From assembly GCA_947625965.1 (NCBI GenBank), contig CANQQO010000016.1, forward strand, positions 1 to 33,513: 33,513 bases of DNA, given 5' to 3'. This DNA is from an uncultured Oscillospiraceae bacterium. GTDB lineage: Bacteria > Bacillota > Clostridia > Oscillospirales > Oscillospiraceae. Below, in pieces: positions 2,895-13,517 of the stretch. The position numbers and the translations under genes are program-made. How positions within the stretch are numbered: position 1 is the first letter of the stretch; each line of letters begins with the position of its first letter. Below the pieces are notes generated by a model, which did no database searches, was not told the origin of the DNA, and saw nothing but the letters and a program-made list of their open reading frames with translations.

Positions 2895-3785
2895 ATGGAC
2901 ACAGCAGGCCGCCGGGCGGCAAAGGCCATTGGGATGGTCGCGGTGATCCTGGCCCTTGGCATCGGCGCCATGTGTCTGACGATGGCGCCCCAGTCTCCCC
3001 CTTCTCCCTCCTCTCCTCAGACCTCCCCCTCGCCGACCGCCAGCGCGGCTCCATCGGCCACCAGCGGCAGCACCCAGCCTCCCTCCCCCACCCGGTCCCA
3101 GGCGGAGCTCACCATCGAGGCCTTCGCCGGGGAGCATGGTCTGACCATGGGAGACTATCCCACCTCCCTCATCAATCTGCTCATCCGCAATCCGGAAACT
3201 GAGGATTTTGTCCTGCAATATCCCCTGGAATATGGCAAGGAGCATGAGGTGGACCTGTCGGAATACCGGGGAAGCGGCGATCAGGACGGTCTGGCGGAAA
3301 TGCCCCTGTTTTTACAGTGGGACAAGCGGTGGGGCTACCTGCAATACGGGGCGGACGTGGTCGGTCTGACGGGCTGCGGTCCGGTGAGTCTGGCCATGGT
3401 GGGCTTCTACCTGACGGGAGACGACAAGTTTTCCCCGGACAAAATGGTGGCCTACGCCCTGGAAAACGACTACTGCGTCAAGGGCAACGGCTCTGCCTGG
3501 ACGCTCATCAGCCAGGGAGCGGTGGATCTGGGGCTGGACGTGACGGAGATCCCCCTGAACCGGGAGCGGATCCTGGCGAATCTGGAGGCGGGAAATCCCA
3601 TCATCTGCGTGGTGGGGCCCGGGGATTTCACGCTGGGCGGCCATTTCATGGTCCTCTCCGGCTGCGAGGACGGCAGGATCAAGATCCACGACCCCAACAG
3701 CCGGATCAACTCCGCCAAGCTCTGGGACTACGACCGTCTGGCCTCTCAGATCGAGGCCCTTTGGGTAGTTCGATACGATGGATAG
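2895..3785 (+). CDS. C39-like secreted peptidase, copy 2 (paralog)
   Basis: This 296-aa protein starts at ATG 2895 after GAGGGGGG. It has a membrane anchor or signal (about residues 10-30), then a low-complexity Ser/Pro/Thr linker (about 31-68) absent from copy 1, then the same NPETE...YPLE pro-region and C39_2 domain. Catalytic candidates are Cys in LTGCGPVSLAM, His in GGHFMVLSG and Asp in IHDPNS. The catalytic domains of the two copies match over most positions (for example GNPIICVVGPGDFT in both), so this is a tandem duplication that has since diverged in the stalk. The Ser/Pro stalk may hold the domain away from the membrane or across the wall. The substrate is unknown. Confidence 0.85.
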   Translation: MDTAGRRAAKAIGMVAVILALGIGAMCLTMAPQSPPSPSSPQTSPSPTASAAPSATSGSTQPPSPTRSQAELTIEAFAGEHGLTMGDYPTSLINLLIRNPETEDFVLQYPLEYGKEHEVDLSEYRGSGDQDGLAEMPLFLQWDKRWGYLQYGADVVGLTGCGPVSLAMVGFYLTGDDKFSPDKMVAYALENDYCVKGNGSAWTLISQGAVDLGLDVTEIPLNRERILANLEAGNPIICVVGPGDFTLGGHFMVLSGCEDGRIKIHDPNSRINSAKLWDYDRLASQIEALWVVRYDG

Positions 3786-6169: not shown

Positions 6170-7606
6170 TTATTCTATATTTTTGGGAGGCCGCTGGGAC
6201 AGCGGGGCCTCAAACCGGTCTTTTCGGGTGTCCTCCGGCACGGGGGTGGGATATTTGCCGTCGAAGCAGGCGGCGCAGCAGCTTCCGCAGCCGCACATCT
6301 CCCCCAGGGCCTCCAGCGGAAGGTAGCCCAAGGTGTCCACGCCGATCATCTCCGCGATTTCCTCCACTGTGTGGCGGCAAGCGATGAGATGGTCCTGGGA
6401 GTCCACGTCGGTGCCGTAGTAGCAGGGGTAGCGAAAGGGCGGCGCGGAGACCCGCATATGGACCTCCCTGGCCCCCGCCTCCCGCAGGAGGCTGACGGTC
6501 CGGGCGCTGGTGTTGCCCCGGACGATGGAGTCGTCGATGAGGACCACCCGCCTGCCCTCCACCGTGTGGCGGATGGGACTGAGCTTGATGCGGACCTGAT
6601 TGACCCGCAGGGCCTGGCCCGGGGAGATGAAGGTCCGGCCGATGTACTTATTCTTCAAAAATCCAAGGCCGTAGGGGATCCCCGAGGCCCGGGAGTAGCC
6701 CAGCGCCGCGTCCAGACCCGAGTCCGGCACGCCCACCACCACGTCCGCCTCCACGGGATAGGTCCGGGCCAGGATCTCCCCCGCGCGCATCCGGGCCGCC
6801 TGGACGCTGACCCCGTCGATCACCGAGTCGGAACGGGCGAAGTAGATATGCTCAAAGACGCAGGGGGTGGGGACCGCCGTGCGACAGTGTTCCCGGTGGG
6901 AGACAAGGCCCTTGTCGCTGAACACCAGGATCTCCCCCGGCTCGATGTCCCGCTCCATCACCGCGCCCACGGACTGAAGGGCGCAGCTCTCGGAAGCCAC
7001 CACGTAGGTGCCGTCCTCCATTTTGCCGTAGCACAGCGGCCGGAAGCCGTGGGGGTCCCGGGCGGCGATGAGCTTGGTGGAGGACATGAGGACGATGGAA
7101 TACGCGCCCTCCAACGTGTCCATGGCCCGGCTGACGGCGGCCTCGATGGACGGGGCCGTGAGGCGTTCCCGGGTGACGATGTAGGCGATGGTCTCGGTGT
7201 CGCTGGTGGTGTGGAAAATGGCGCCGTTGCGCTCCAGCTCCAGGCGGAGCTGGAAGGCGTTGCTCAAATTGCCGTTGTGGGCCAGGGCCATCTTGCCCTT
7301 GTGGTGGTTGACCTGGATGGGCTGGCAGTTGGCCCGGCTGCTGCCGCCGGTGGTGCCGTAGCGCACATGGCCCAGGGCCAGGCGGCCCGGAGGCAGACGG
7401 TCCAAAGCGTCGGGGCTGAAAACCTCGCTGACCAGACCCAGATCCCTCCGGGAGTAGAAGACGCCGTCGTCGTTGACCACGACGCCGCAGCTCTCCTGCC
7501 CGCGGTGCTGCAATGCGTAGAGGCCGTAGTAGGCAAGGCGGCCCACCTCCTGGCGCTGCCGGCTGAAAACGCCGAACACGCCGCATTCCTCATGTAAACT
7601 GCTCAA
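6170..7606 (-). CDS. purF: Amidophosphoribosyltransferase
   Basis: The 478-aa enzyme makes phosphoribosylamine from PRPP and glutamine, the first committed purine step. The N-terminal glutaminase nucleophile is Cys8 in HEECGVFG, after a 7-residue leader that is probably removed, as in the Bacillus-type enzyme. The PRPP loop is [14 protein letters not shown]. Cysteines in [22 protein letters not shown] and the [11 protein letters not shown] cluster near the C-terminus fit the Fe-S ligands of Gram-positive PurF. The start is TTG at 7606, chosen because GGAGG lies 7 bases upstream and no ATG or GTG fits before Cys8. It heads the purF-purC-MATE operon, under a near-consensus promoter overlapped by a 19-bp palindrome. 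Confidence 0.97.
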
Positions 7607-7832: not shown

Positions 7833-7861
7833 TTGCGAAAAAAAGGAAAAAGTGGTATACT
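7833..7861 (+). promoter_or_regulatory. Sigma-A promoter of the S11-propeller gene
   Basis: TTGCGA (7833-7838) and TATACT (7856-7861) are separated by 17 bp, 42 bases before the start codon. It is divergent from the purF promoter, and the 296-bp intergenic region holds nothing else beyond these promoters and the palindrome. Confidence 0.85.
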
Positions 7862-7902
7862 GTGTATCAAGAATCCTGCTTTTGCAGCTTTGGAGGTAAG
7901 AA

Positions 7903-10770
7903 ATGAAAAAGACGATCAGCCTTGTGACGGCCCTGGCACTGATGTTTGCCTTTGCTGCCCCGGTCATGGCTCTGGAATACAGCGGTTCGCTCAACGCCGA
8001 CCACGTCGTCCTGATGAACGCGGACACCGGGGAGATCCTTTTGGATAAGGACGGCTCCGCCGCCGTGGACCCCTTAGCCTCCGCCAAACTTGTGGCCGCT
8101 CTGACGGCGGTAGACGCCAGCGCCGATCTCAGCGCCTCGGTGACCCTGGACGCCGACACTCTGGACGGGGAGTACGACAGCGACTCGGTGCTGGAGGAGG
8201 ACGACGTCCTCACCCTGGAGCAGGTGATGATGCTGATGCTCTTCCGGCAGGAGAGCGACCCCGCCGTGGCCGTCGCCAAGACGGTAAGCGGCGATGTGGA
8301 CGCTTTCGTGGCGGCCATGAACGCCAAGGCCAAGGAGCTCAAAATGGACTCCACGGTCTTTGTCAATCCCCACGGCGAGGAGGCCGAGGGTCAGCAGACT
8401 ACCGCCAAGGACCTGGCGGTGCTGGGCTCCGCCATTTCCGAGCGGGATCTGTTCCTGGAGCTGCTGTCCTACACCCAGTACGACATCCCCGAGGGGGAGA
8501 ACAACCACGCCTACACCGCCAAGAATCCCAATGAGCTGATGTACCGGGAGGGCGAGGGCAGCGAGCATTTCTATGAATACGCCACGGGCCTTCTGGCCTG
8601 GACCGACGGCGACGGGGCCGGCTGCCTCCTGGCCACCGCCCAGCAGGGCGGCACCCGGCTGACCTGCGTCATCCTGGGGGACCATTCCAGCGGCCAGACT
8701 GAGCGCTGGACCCTGGCCAAGGATCTGATGGAGGAGGGCTTCAACCACGCCCTGGACAATTCCGCCGATCCCAACCAGGTCTCCCGGCCCCAGACCACCT
8801 CGCCGGGAGCCTCCGCGCCCTCCCAGTCCCAGGCCCCCAGCGGGAATCAGGACCCCGGCGTCCACCAGGAGGATCCGGCCCTCCAGCGTCTGCGGATGGC
8901 CTTGATCGCCCTGGCCGCCATTACCTGCGTGCTGGCGGTGGCCTCCATCGCCATGCTGGCTTTCAGCGTCATGAGCAACCGGAGGCCCAGCAGCACCCAG
9001 AACATTGTTTCTATCGCCCTGTACGTGGTCACCTTCCTGGTGGCGCTGGTCACCATCCTCTGCGTCTTCCAGTACCGGAATATGGAGCGCTCCGCCTTGC
9101 TGGATCCCAGCCGCCGCCCATCTGTCACCGCCTCCGTTCCCACGGAAGCCACCACAAAAGCTACGGAGCCGCCTGTTACGGCGGCTCCTACTGCATCTAC
9201 GACCGTCCCTCCTACCGAGCCGCCTCCCCCTCCCACGGAGCCTGACCCCATGGATAATTTCCATCCCCACCACACGGAGGACACGGACCCGGACAATTTC
9301 GATGTGAACTGGGAAATCATAGTGGACGATGAAATCGTGGAGACCTACGATCGGGAGGCCCCCATTTTCTTTGGAAAAAACACGGACTACGCCTCCTCCC
9401 TGCCCTCCATCACCACCTTCCGGGGGGACAATTTCCGCACCGGCGCCACCTACGGCACCGCCAGCATTTCCAATGAAACCATCTCCGAGGAATGGAGCGT
9501 CCCTGTGGGCTCCTTCAACACCTGGTCCGGCTGCGGGTGGACGGGCCAGCCCCTGCTGGTCCAGTGGGACGCCGAGACCCGGCAGATCATGAATCTCTAC
9601 GAGGACAAAAAGGACAAGGACGGTCTGGTGGAGATCATCTACGCCACTCTGGACGGCTACATCTACTTCCTGGACCTGGACGACGGCAGCTACACCCGGG
9701 ACCGGATGTATGTGGGCATGAACTTCAAGGGCGCCGGCGCCGTCGATCCCCGGGGGTATCCCCTTATGTATGTGGGTTCCGGCGACTATGTGGAGAATAT
9801 GTCCCCCAGAATGTATATCATCAGTCTGATCGACTGCACCGTTCTGGCGGAAATGGGCTACAGCGAGTCCTATATCCCCCGGAGCTGGAACGCCTATGAC
9901 TCCTCCCCCCTGGTCAGCGGGGAGACCGACACCCTGATCTGGCCCGGGGAAAACGGCCAGCTCTACACCATCGACCTGAATACCCAGTATGACAAGGCCG
10001 CCGGCACCATCTCCGTGGACCCCAAGGTCGTTGCCAAGGGGTCCTACAATCCGGACCGCTTCGGCTCCTACTCCTATTGGGTAGGCATGGAGGATAGCTG
10101 CGTAGTGGTGGGCAACTACCTGTACGTGTCGGAAAACGGCGGACTCTTCTTCTGCGTGGACCTGAACACCATGGAGCTGGTTTGGGTCCAGGACACCAAG
10201 GACGACTCCAACTCCACCCCGGTCTTTGAGTGGGGCGAGGACAACAACGGCTATCTTTACACCGCTCCCTCCCTCCACTGGACCGCAGAGGGAGGCTGGG
10301 GGGAGATCTCCATCTACAAGCTGGACGCTCAGACCGGCGAGATCGTCTGGGAGCACCCCTGGGACTGCGGCACGGTGGAGGATGTGTCCGGCGGCGTCCA
10401 GTCCTCCCCCCTGCTGGGCAGGAAGGGCACCAACATCGAAGGGCTCATCATCTACTCCATCTCCCGGACCCCGGAGCTCTATGACGGCAGGCTGGTGGCC
10501 TTCCACACCTCCGATGGCAGCGTGGCCTGGGAATGTGAACTGCCCTACTATGGCTGGAGCTCCACCACGGCGGTCTACGGCGACGATGGGACGGTCTACC
10601 TGATCCAGGCTTGCTCCGACGGCACGGTGCTCCTGATCGACGGCGCCACCGGCGAAAAGCTGGACCGGACCAACCTGGGCTCCACCATCGAGGCTTCCCC
10701 CGTGGTATGGGAGGACAAGGTGGTCCTGGGTACCCGGGGCGCGTCCATCAATATGATGATCGTGAGTTAA
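7903..10770 (+). CDS. Inactive S11 (DacA-like) domain fused to two TM helices and a PQQ-type beta-propeller
   Basis: The 955-aa protein starts at ATG 7903 after TGGAGG. It has a signal peptide (1-23), an S11 peptidase-fold domain (about 30-285), a Pro/Ser linker, two hydrophobic helices (about 331-357 and 368-390), a Thr/Pro/Glu-rich linker (about 400-445), and a C-terminal beta-propeller with PQQ-like blades (about 490-955). The S11 fold is shown by VVLMNADTGEILL and STVFVNPHG...TTAKDLA, but all three catalytic motifs are lost: SxxK reads A59-S-A-K62, SxN reads Q116-E-S118, and KTG reads A227-T-G229. With a cleaved signal and two helices, both large domains should face outside. A wall-binding or scaffold role is my inference. 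There are no internal stops, so the fusion is not an assembly artefact of two frames. Confidence 0.88.
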   Translation: MKKTISLVTALALMFAFAAPVMALEYSGSLNADHVVLMNADTGEILLDKDGSAAVDPLASAKLVAALTAVDASADLSASVTLDADTLDGEYDSDSVLEEDDVLTLEQVMMLMLFRQESDPAVAVAKTVSGDVDAFVAAMNAKAKELKMDSTVFVNPHGEEAEGQQTTAKDLAVLGSAISERDLFLELLSYTQYDIPEGENNHAYTAKNPNELMYREGEGSEHFYEYATGLLAWTDGDGAGCLLATAQQGGTRLTCVILGDHSSGQTERWTLAKDLMEEGFNHALDNSADPNQVSRPQTTSPGASAPSQSQAPSGNQDPGVHQEDPALQRLRMALIALAAITCVLAVASIAMLAFSVMSNRRPSSTQNIVSIALYVVTFLVALVTILCVFQYRNMERSALLDPSRRPSVTASVPTEATTKATEPPVTAAPTASTTVPPTEPPPPPTEPDPMDNFHPHHTEDTDPDNFDVNWEIIVDDEIVETYDREAPIFFGKNTDYASSLPSITTFRGDNFRTGATYGTASISNETISEEWSVPVGSFNTWSGCGWTGQPLLVQWDAETRQIMNLYEDKKDKDGLVEIIYATLDGYIYFLDLDDGSYTRDRMYVGMNFKGAGAVDPRGYPLMYVGSGDYVENMSPRMYIISLIDCTVLAEMGYSESYIPRSWNAYDSSPLVSGETDTLIWPGENGQLYTIDLNTQYDKAAGTISVDPKVVAKGSYNPDRFGSYSYWVGMEDSCVVVGNYLYVSENGGLFFCVDLNTMELVWVQDTKDDSNSTPVFEWGEDNNGYLYTAPSLHWTAEGGWGEISIYKLDAQTGEIVWEHPWDCGTVEDVSGGVQSSPLLGRKGTNIEGLIIYSISRTPELYDGRLVAFHTSDGSVAWECELPYYGWSSTTAVYGDDGTVYLIQACSDGTVLLIDGATGEKLDRTNLGSTIEASPVVWEDKVVLGTRGASINMMIVS

Positions 10771-12889: not shown

Positions 12890-12910
12890 AGGCGGACCCT
12901 GATCGTTTTT
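12877..12910 (+). terminator. Terminator shared by convergent genes
   Basis: AGGGTCCGC (12877-12885) pairs with GCGGACCCT (12892-12900), followed by GATCGTTTTTATTTT. The stem includes the end of the Sel1 gene. On the minus strand the convergent membrane-protein gene ends at 12909. Confidence 0.88.
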
Positions 12911-13517
12911 ATTTTACTTCTGTCCGCTTCATGCACATGGGGAAGCAGGCAAAGGCCGCCGCGCCGGCCAGGGCCGACAGCTCCGGGAGAATGGGCACGA
13001 TTTTGATCGTATCCAGCACCGCGGTGAAAGCCTCCTTGAATTTCTGCGCCTTCAGCAGGGGCGGGATGGCCTCCCAGCTCTGAAGATATGTTCCCGCGTC
13101 TCCAAACAGGCGCAGGACCAGCGGCAACAGCAAAAGGAGCAGGGCGATGCCGCGCGTAGGCAGATACCCCAGGCCCGTCACGATCAGTACCGCCGCCCCC
13201 AGCAGGAACAGCACCAGGGAGAGCACGCCCCACTCCCCCGCCAAGTGCGGGGAGGCAACGAGGAAATAGGCCAGCGCCAGAGCCCCGTAGACCACCGGCA
13301 CGTTCAGCCGGACCGCCCGGAGCAGGACCCCGTGGGCCGCCAGGACCAGAGCCGGCAGGATCAGCGGCAGCAGGAGGCTCATGGCCGTCCAGCCCTCGGT
13401 GAAGCAGAGGTAGTACAGCGCCGCCAGGAAGATGGACAGCCCCGCGAAAAAGGCGGAGGCCGTCATCCAGGGGCTTTGAAAGTCCAGGGTATACCGGACG
13501 CCGGGTTTGAATTTCAT
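12909..13517 (-). CDS. Six-helix membrane protein of unknown function
   Basis: The 202-aa protein has about six hydrophobic segments, including FFAGLSIFLAALYYLCF, SLLLPLILPALVLAAHGV, LSLVLFLLGAAVLIV and ALLLLLLPLVLRLFG, and a soluble stretch about 140-170 (QSWEAIPPLLKAQKFKEAF). Its ATG overlaps the pgsA stop by 4 bp (ATGA), so it is translated with pgsA and ends the long minus-strand run. I do not recognise the family. A link to membrane lipid metabolism is only suggested by position. Confidence 0.8.
   Translation of the reverse strand: MKFKPGVRYTLDFQSPWMTASAFFAGLSIFLAALYYLCFTEGWTAMSLLLPLILPALVLAAHGVLLRAVRLNVPVVYGALALAYFLVASPHLAGEWGVLSLVLFLLGAAVLIVTGLGYLPTRGIALLLLLLPLVLRLFGDAGTYLQSWEAIPPLLKAQKFKEAFTAVLDTIKIVPILPELSALAGAAAFACFPMCMKRTEVK

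Follow-up and report, generated by a model that had tools for sequence, protein, structure and literature searches.

A peptidase S11 domain without its catalytic motifs on a membrane-anchored propeller protein of an uncultured Oscillospiraceae bacterium: probable descent from an active enzyme and a possible docking role

The window analyzed here is the whole stretch of 33,513 nucleotides that makes up contig 16 (CANQQO010000016.1) of the 2.03-Mb genome, in 110 contigs, of an uncultured Oscillospiraceae bacterium. It carries a 955-codon gene whose product, P0001, joins a domain of the DD-carboxypeptidase-like family S11 to a C-terminal beta-propeller by way of two transmembrane (TM) helices, and the S11 domain has lost all three catalytic motifs of its family (SxxK, SxN and KTG). 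A sequence-only reading of the window had already pointed to this arrangement; our analysis confirms that observation with one correction and supports the accompanying interpretation in part. The reading frame is uninterrupted from the ATG at 7903 to the stop at 10770 on the plus strand, and its G+C content at the three codon positions (0.59/0.44/0.85) is typical of a real gene. An open reading frame on the opposite strand (8074-10506, minus, 810 amino acids) mirrors these values (0.85/0.44/0.59) and was rejected as a shadow of the plus-strand frame. The features of the gene are given below, where alignment A1 comprises 18 proteins of more than 850 amino acids, the window's own included, among the best 120 of 1892 matches, and dN/dS is the ratio of nonsynonymous to synonymous substitution rates.

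7903..10770, plus: 955-amino-acid open reading frame encoding signal peptide, dead S11 domain, two TM helices and propeller (translation, Pfam, hydrophobicity)
7833..7861, plus: promoter-like site, TTGCGA, 17 bases, TATACT, with TG preceding the -10 (consensus scan; candidate only)
7892..7896, plus: GGAGG, ribosome-binding-like (sequence)
7903..7974, plus: signal peptide, residues 1-24 (hydrophobic segment 5-23; A23 invariant in alignment A1)
7981..8757, plus: S11 (DD-carboxypeptidase-like) domain, residues 27-285 (Pfam PF00768 at 29-261; dN/dS 0.139)
8077..8088, plus: SxxK column, reading A-S-A-K, residues 59-62 (alignment; Lys kept in 9/9 dead rows)
8248..8256, plus: SxN column, reading Q-E-S, residues 116-118 (alignment)
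8362..8376, plus: VNPHG fold signature, retained, residues 154-158 (translation, alignment)
8581..8589, plus: A-T-G, residues 227-229, earlier mistaken for KTG (TG also in intact homologues)
8593..8601, plus: true KTG column, reading L-A-W, residues 231-233 (LAW in 9/9 dead rows, KTG in 14/14 intact)
8758..8901, plus: Ser/Pro/Gln-rich linker, residues 286-333 (translation; residues 286-326 dN/dS 0.394)
8902..8958, plus: TM helix 1, residues 334-352 (hydrophobic segment)
9013..9069, plus: TM helix 2, residues 371-389 (hydrophobic segment)
9259..10767, plus: PQQ/BamB-type beta-propeller, residues 453-955 (Pfam PQQ_2; BamB and quinoprotein chains by profile; dN/dS 0.092)

The proposed link to a PQQ/BamB-type propeller by way of two TM helices was borne out, with a second, Thr/Pro-rich linker between the helices and the propeller. 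PQQ_2 (BamB, PF13360) scores 50.1 bits against a cut-off of 27.6, and the protein misses the cut-off of PF01011 (24.6 versus 26.7 bits). The signal peptide and the two helices together predict a topology in which both modules would lie outside the cytoplasm, as had been proposed.

The Peptidase_S11 model (PF00768) matches residues 29-261 at 108.5 bits, compared to a curated cut-off of 27.6, and nearly the whole model is covered. Membership in the family is thus assigned by profile, whereas an SxxK with its nucleophilic Ser, an SxN and a KTG are all absent. The sequence-only reading had given the three motifs as A-S-A-K, Q-E-S and A-T-G, and alignment upholds the first two. The A-T-G, however, sits four residues ahead of the KTG column, and it is not that column because the same TG precedes an intact KTG in homologues, where an [A/V]TG stretch is also found (T228 in 13 and G229 in all 14 of the intact proteins, e.g. 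'YATGMKTGYTPT'); the KTG column itself reads L-A-W, so the motif is still lost. Motifs that are intact in shifted positions, which the reading had named as grounds for refutation, do not occur: 14 of the 18 aligned full-length proteins (41-46% identical) keep all three in the same columns as STTK, SGN and KTG, and residues 27-285 of the window protein contain neither an SxxK nor a [KRH][TSG]G, the sole SxN-like triplet being SLN at residue 29.

Nine S11 sequences are dead in this sense (P0001-P0004, L007 and L036-L039), although they are not independent, since seven come from one close group. The Asn of SxN is gone from all nine and the Ser of SxxK from eight, where Ala replaces it; P0003 retains the Ser. 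Because L-A-W is present in both sub-clades of dead domains while P0003 keeps its Ser, the change in KTG most simply preceded the other motif losses. Lys62 of SxxK and Asp119, which follows SxN, are retained in all nine. In the dead domains, 39 positions are invariant and common to at least 12 of the 14 intact ones, and 9 others, including L231, A232 and W233, are invariant in the dead domains yet different from the intact ones. All three motifs are lost in each of the seven S11-fused genomes found in the window's genus (g1), the window's own included, which argues that the loss is beyond chance.

With the motifs lost, and since three of the four active-site Ala variants of Escherichia coli PBP7 (penicillin-binding protein 7), namely S67A, S124A and K231A, with K70A outside that list, did not bind Bocillin (PMC11586513), catalysis by the S11 domain of the window protein is very unlikely. 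The genome has four other S11 genes with SxxK and SxN intact, and KTG is visible in three of them (read by eye). Intact candidates for wall trimming thus remain, and the cell may keep this activity despite the loss.

The ancestor of the protein was probably an active DD-carboxypeptidase fusion, given that 14 of the 18 relatives keep the motifs in identical columns. L253, from a genome of the same bacterial family, is an intact S11-2TM-propeller fusion for which the DNA is at hand (motifs read by eye). In a carefully built tree of 78 S11 domains, all 23 fused sequences are split from 55 separate S11 proteins with support of 100/99. The nine dead domains form one group (100/99) whose stem is long (0.82), and the window's domain groups with the 14 intact fused ones (100/99), in line with a pseudoenzyme descended from intact relatives; that the dead domains are nested among the intact ones is less well supported (87/97). 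L004, L006, L145, L008 and L179 were omitted from this tree as duplicates, and four S11 proteins from a protein search were added. The census of fusions rests on the best 120 of the 1892 matches plus genome searches, and two additional protein searches yielded no new full-length fusion.

The propellers group differently. Intact-fused, dead-fused and S11-less proteins are interleaved in the propeller trees, and the test of a single clade for all fused proteins led to its rejection (p-AU 9.75e-06). These were quick trees, the first built from the 18 fused P proteins, 34 of the 102 listed S11-less proteins (one in three) and hand-picked loci, and the second from 58 of 96 sequences, also hand-picked, with L037 and L038 dropped as near-copies. 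The simplest reading of this history has S11 fused once and lost several times; alternatively, the S11 part may have been exchanged between propellers.

The sequence-only reading took a frame kept open over 955 codons as a sign of selection on the domain. An open frame alone is not evidence of selection, but dN/dS supports the claim. We used Nei-Gojobori counting (own script, gapped codons dropped) on five sequences of one genus, L007 and L036-L039, leaving out L008 (the same protein as L037), L231 (the same as L036), L230, L232 and L233. The S11 domain has a dN/dS of 0.139 (bootstrap 0.092-0.198; 259 codons; dS about 0.28), compared to 0.092 (0.063-0.123) for the propeller and 0.123 for the TM part; the linkers are higher, with 0.394 (0.196-0.737) in the first and 0.220 in the second. 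By this counting method, in these five sequences, the dead S11 domain is under purifying selection after the loss of its motifs and is less constrained than the propeller.

Of 136 genomes of genus g1, 35 carry the family at E 1e-60, seven with S11 (all dead) and 28 without. The window gene stands alone: on one side a purF-like gene is transcribed in the opposite direction, pointing away, and on the downstream side a MarR gene follows after about 450 bases. The neighbors recur as follows.

6170..7606, minus: purF-like gene, also beside 5 of 6 other fused loci inspected (L233 is cut by the contig end)
11217..11696, plus: MarR-family gene, also beside S11-less L009, L242 and L243
11722..12330, plus: cytidylate-kinase-like gene, also beside nine S11-less copies

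Twelve of the 24 S11-less loci inspected, with flanks of up to 1.5 kb, share a neighbor with the window locus (the MarR gene in 3 and the cytidylate-kinase-like gene in 9), and because of these shared neighbors such copies are the same locus minus the domain. Moreover, 30 of the 102 listed S11-less proteins begin with a signal-peptide-like segment before two TM helices. This start is likely a scar of a lost S11 domain, since a protein with two TM helices would not seem to need one. It lies a few residues ahead of the helices in P0006, P0023, P0030, L009 and L242, among others. Another S11-less propeller of the genus, L251, has a lipoprotein-like start (MKITRMIALVCLISMVFAGC) and lacks the two TM helices. 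Genus g453, which belongs to the same family, has two genomes among 35 with a match to P0014 at E 1e-150; one holds the intact fusion L253 and the other an S11-less protein with a signal-peptide-like start.

At wider sampling the family is accessory, with P0014 matches at 1e-100 in 73 of 400 genomes sampled from the bacterial family and in 52 of 391 sampled from the class. Among the matches listed for the A1 profile in 394 genomes of the order, the full fusion is present only in the window's genome, which is also the sole match among 299 genomes of the phylum in a profile search at E 1e-90, a search that differs from that of the class in samples and queries. In the order, class, family and phylum searches, nearly every genome had just two candidate places scored.

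Several candidates for a conserved operon partner were rejected. The largest recurrent neighbor clusters across 80 named loci were ABC-ATPase-like (14 loci) and MATE-like (9), named by eye, and a 16-locus cluster apparently consists of opposite-strand shadow frames. The RimO-like (7) and cytidylate-kinase-like (6) clusters are partly the window's own locus, as they include L036, L037 and L039; RimO-like genes also lie beside S11-less L040, L041, L043 and L046, and cytidylate-kinase-like genes beside S11-less L040, L042 and L102. An S11 gene adjoins the propeller gene in two of the 80 loci (L059:4604-7833 and L086:4616-7848), where a separate S11 gene with SMTK, SGG and KTG lies 219 and 51 bases, respectively, upstream of an S11-less propeller gene.

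What, then, might a dead wall enzyme contribute to a propeller protein? The most likely answer, to which we give roughly even odds (about 0.5), is that the dead S11 domain, derived from an active DD-carboxypeptidase fusion, serves without catalysis as a docking module of an envelope propeller anchored in the membrane. The ancestor would have been a wall DD-peptidase anchored at the membrane beside an extracytoplasmic propeller, and in the window lineage the S11 part would have turned pseudoenzyme, kept for docking or positioning without catalysis. The propeller would be the conserved working part, binding a partner or ligand as for BamB, and the dead S11 domain, likewise on the outer side of the membrane, may add a binding surface, most likely for peptidoglycan-synthesis proteins or the wall itself. 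Activity-independent behavior of an S11 protein is already documented in E. coli PBP7, whose midcell localization is independent of its activity (PMC11586513).

The docking role taken on its own is the weakest step of this reading and is proposed tentatively, at somewhat less than an even chance. Several observations weigh against the reading as a whole. The domain is dispensable in the genus, as 28 of the 35 propeller-bearing genomes do without it, and no conserved partner gene was found among the 80 named loci (flanks of up to 6 kb, often cut). When the window protein is compared with the five sequences above, the dN/dS of S11 is higher, at 0.337 (dS 0.73), with 0.162 for the propeller. The S11 domain has also diverged more than the propeller, with 36% versus 57% identity between dead and intact proteins; for comparison, intact pairs are 61% identical in S11 and 67% in the propeller. 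Finally, motif loss is only mildly concentrated: 11 of 23 positions near the motifs and 11 of 50 far from them are lost from all dead domains (p 0.03), and 18 of 23 near and 28 of 50 far are not fully kept (p 0.075).

The relic hypothesis is the strongest rival, because the domain is dispensed with elsewhere in the genus: S11 would have lost its use and be constrained just for folding and export until a deletion removes it, as seems to have occurred in other species. The neighbors shared by 12 of the 24 S11-less loci, the signal-peptide-like starts, the rejection of a fused clade on the propeller tree even though the S11 domains group together, and the greater divergence of the dead domain are all consistent with such a course. 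A relic would not readily explain why the dN/dS of S11 is near that of the TM part and below that of the linker, why L-A-W is kept in 9/9 sequences over two sub-clades in which S11 is just 38-39% identical (P0001 versus P0004 and P0003), or why seven genomes of the genus still hold S11 in frame. We consider this alternative rather unlikely, but it is the one to be taken most seriously.

The wall-stem-peptide receptor tentatively suggested by the sequence-only reading, in which the groove binds a wall peptide uncut and the propeller relays the signal, fares less well and appears quite improbable. The fold is kept at 108.5 bits, Lys62 and Asp119 of the motif region persist in all nine dead domains, and BlaR1/MecR1 provide a known receptor use of this fold. 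The KTG strand, however, lines the substrate in active S11 enzymes, and here it reads L-A-W, with Trp in place of Gly; the Asn of SxN is gone from 9/9; and the protein has no cytoplasmic signaling domain, merely a short loop between the TM helices. A new chemistry, in which Lys62, Asp119 and L-A-W form another active site, for example one acting on a D-alanyl ester, would account for the invariance of K62 and D119, but no conserved nucleophile replaces Ser59 (Ala in eight of nine, Ser in P0003), and we give it very little credence. An assembly or annotation artefact, which a single metagenome-type genome in 110 contigs might suggest, is refuted by six other genomes of the genus, which encode related full-length proteins that show the same loss (at least four of the six are the assemblies from which L036-L039 come), and has a negligible probability.

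The same propeller has a second association of a comparable kind. In the clostridial family f64, where 10 of 11 genomes have a match, it is preceded by a Beta-lactamase2 domain (PF13354; 133.8 bits versus a cut-off of 22), the fold of which we take to be in the same superfamily as S11. L207, L208, L210, L220 and L221 retain SxxK, SDN and K-x-G (L207 read by eye), and the partial L206 (without the SxxK part) and L224 do so as far as visible; L209/L226 is cut ahead of the SxxK and SDN columns, and the reading of motifs left out L227-L229. Four domains are broken and still score 59 to 87 bits: L204 (QATA, GDY, third motif unaligned), L205 (DSTA, NDM, yet FKSG), L222 (SVYK pattern kept, DDR, SLFT) and L223 (AAYK, DDR, SFVT). 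The G491 genome has one intact and one broken copy. In a nine-sequence tree without L207, the L204/L205 and L222/L223 pairs (each 100/100) stand apart on long stems, and the branches that hold them have support of 82/84 and 94/94. Motif loss appears to have come about on three branches in all, in S11 in genus g1 and relatives and in Beta-lactamase2 in genera g226 and g206.

These proteins resemble the window protein in having the same propeller family and an N-terminal SxxK-fold domain in intact and broken versions. They differ in that the domain is class A beta-lactamase-like, the anchor is lipoprotein-like or N-terminal hydrophobic (by eye), and the propeller falls on a separate branch, as seen from the distant position of L174 (the same gene as L210). 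From their sequences, it seems that a related fold was fused separately to this propeller and then broke down twice more. In L207, L208 and L210, the intact gene is flanked by an oxidoreductase-like gene on one side and by a pair of sugar-kinase-like and SIS-like genes on the other (named by eye), neighbors that hint at amino-sugar or wall recycling. It is conceivable, if unlikely, that the propeller is a recurrent chassis for SxxK-fold domains, to which at least two, S11 and Beta-lactamase2, were each fused, later losing at least one motif in some branches yet staying. The N-terminal fold would then serve to bind D-alanyl ligands, wall peptides or partner PBPs, whether or not it also catalyzes a reaction, and the proteins would be pseudo-PBP envelope sensors.

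Other searches of the window added little to this picture. An Rfam scan gave no RNA element above threshold, PADLOC gave P0001 no defense-system match up to E 0.01, and a search for a phage or plasmid origin returned no record covering 80% of the protein and confirmed no viral contig. Elsewhere, the window contains two adjacent, similar secreted genes (2000-2815 and 2895-3785), the first of which matches Peptidase_C39_2, a 202-amino-acid hydrophobic protein without a Pfam match at E 0.001 (12909-13517, minus) and a tRNA-Leu(gag) (1737-1820, minus).

The S11 fold, the propeller and the idea of a pseudoenzyme are already known. Among the titles and abstract openings listed by searches of the open-licence literature, none describes an S11-type pseudoenzyme-propeller fusion or a dead S11 domain. 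As far as searched, the novelty lies in an S11 domain that is dead yet under selection in this architecture, in its invariant L-A-W, and in repeated fusion and breakdown on one propeller family. Intact, dead and absent states form a series inside a single bacterial family, paralleled in another domain, and since natural intact, dead and S11-less versions coexist, the question of a wall enzyme's role after the loss of catalysis is directly testable.

Among known systems, the S11 DD-carboxypeptidases and endopeptidases (DacA/PBP5, PBP7 and Bacillus subtilis DacB) share with the window protein the profile fold, the signal peptide and the outer location, and solved relatives of the S11 domain include 3mfd. 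Unlike these enzymes, the window protein has lost SxxK, SxN and KTG and continues from S11 into two TM helices and a propeller, and penicillin binding would not be expected of it. Sensors of the BlaR1/MecR1 type combine an M56 peptidase with an acylatable SxxK sensor domain, whereas P0001 has no M56 match up to E 1 and has lost SxxK. The propeller matches the BamB/PQQ profile (PF13360) above its cut-off, with BamB chains by profile, and falls far below the NCBIfam cut-offs for the BamB equivalog (27.5 versus 285.2 bits) and a PQQ-dependent dehydrogenase (40.7 versus 480 bits). The relatives are Oscillospiraceae, a group not known to have a BamA partner. PQQ-type propellers are described as protein-binding (PMC9218822). 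Clostridioides difficile WalA, a lipoprotein with a predicted beta-propeller lyase domain that may modulate WalK, is likewise an envelope propeller of a clostridial organism but, as described in PMC9210968, is one without S11. The literature searched offered no specific name for the S11-2TM-propeller architecture. The intact proteins of that architecture (14 P proteins and L253) have the same domain order and S11 domains that group with the dead ones, and they differ in that their motifs are intact.

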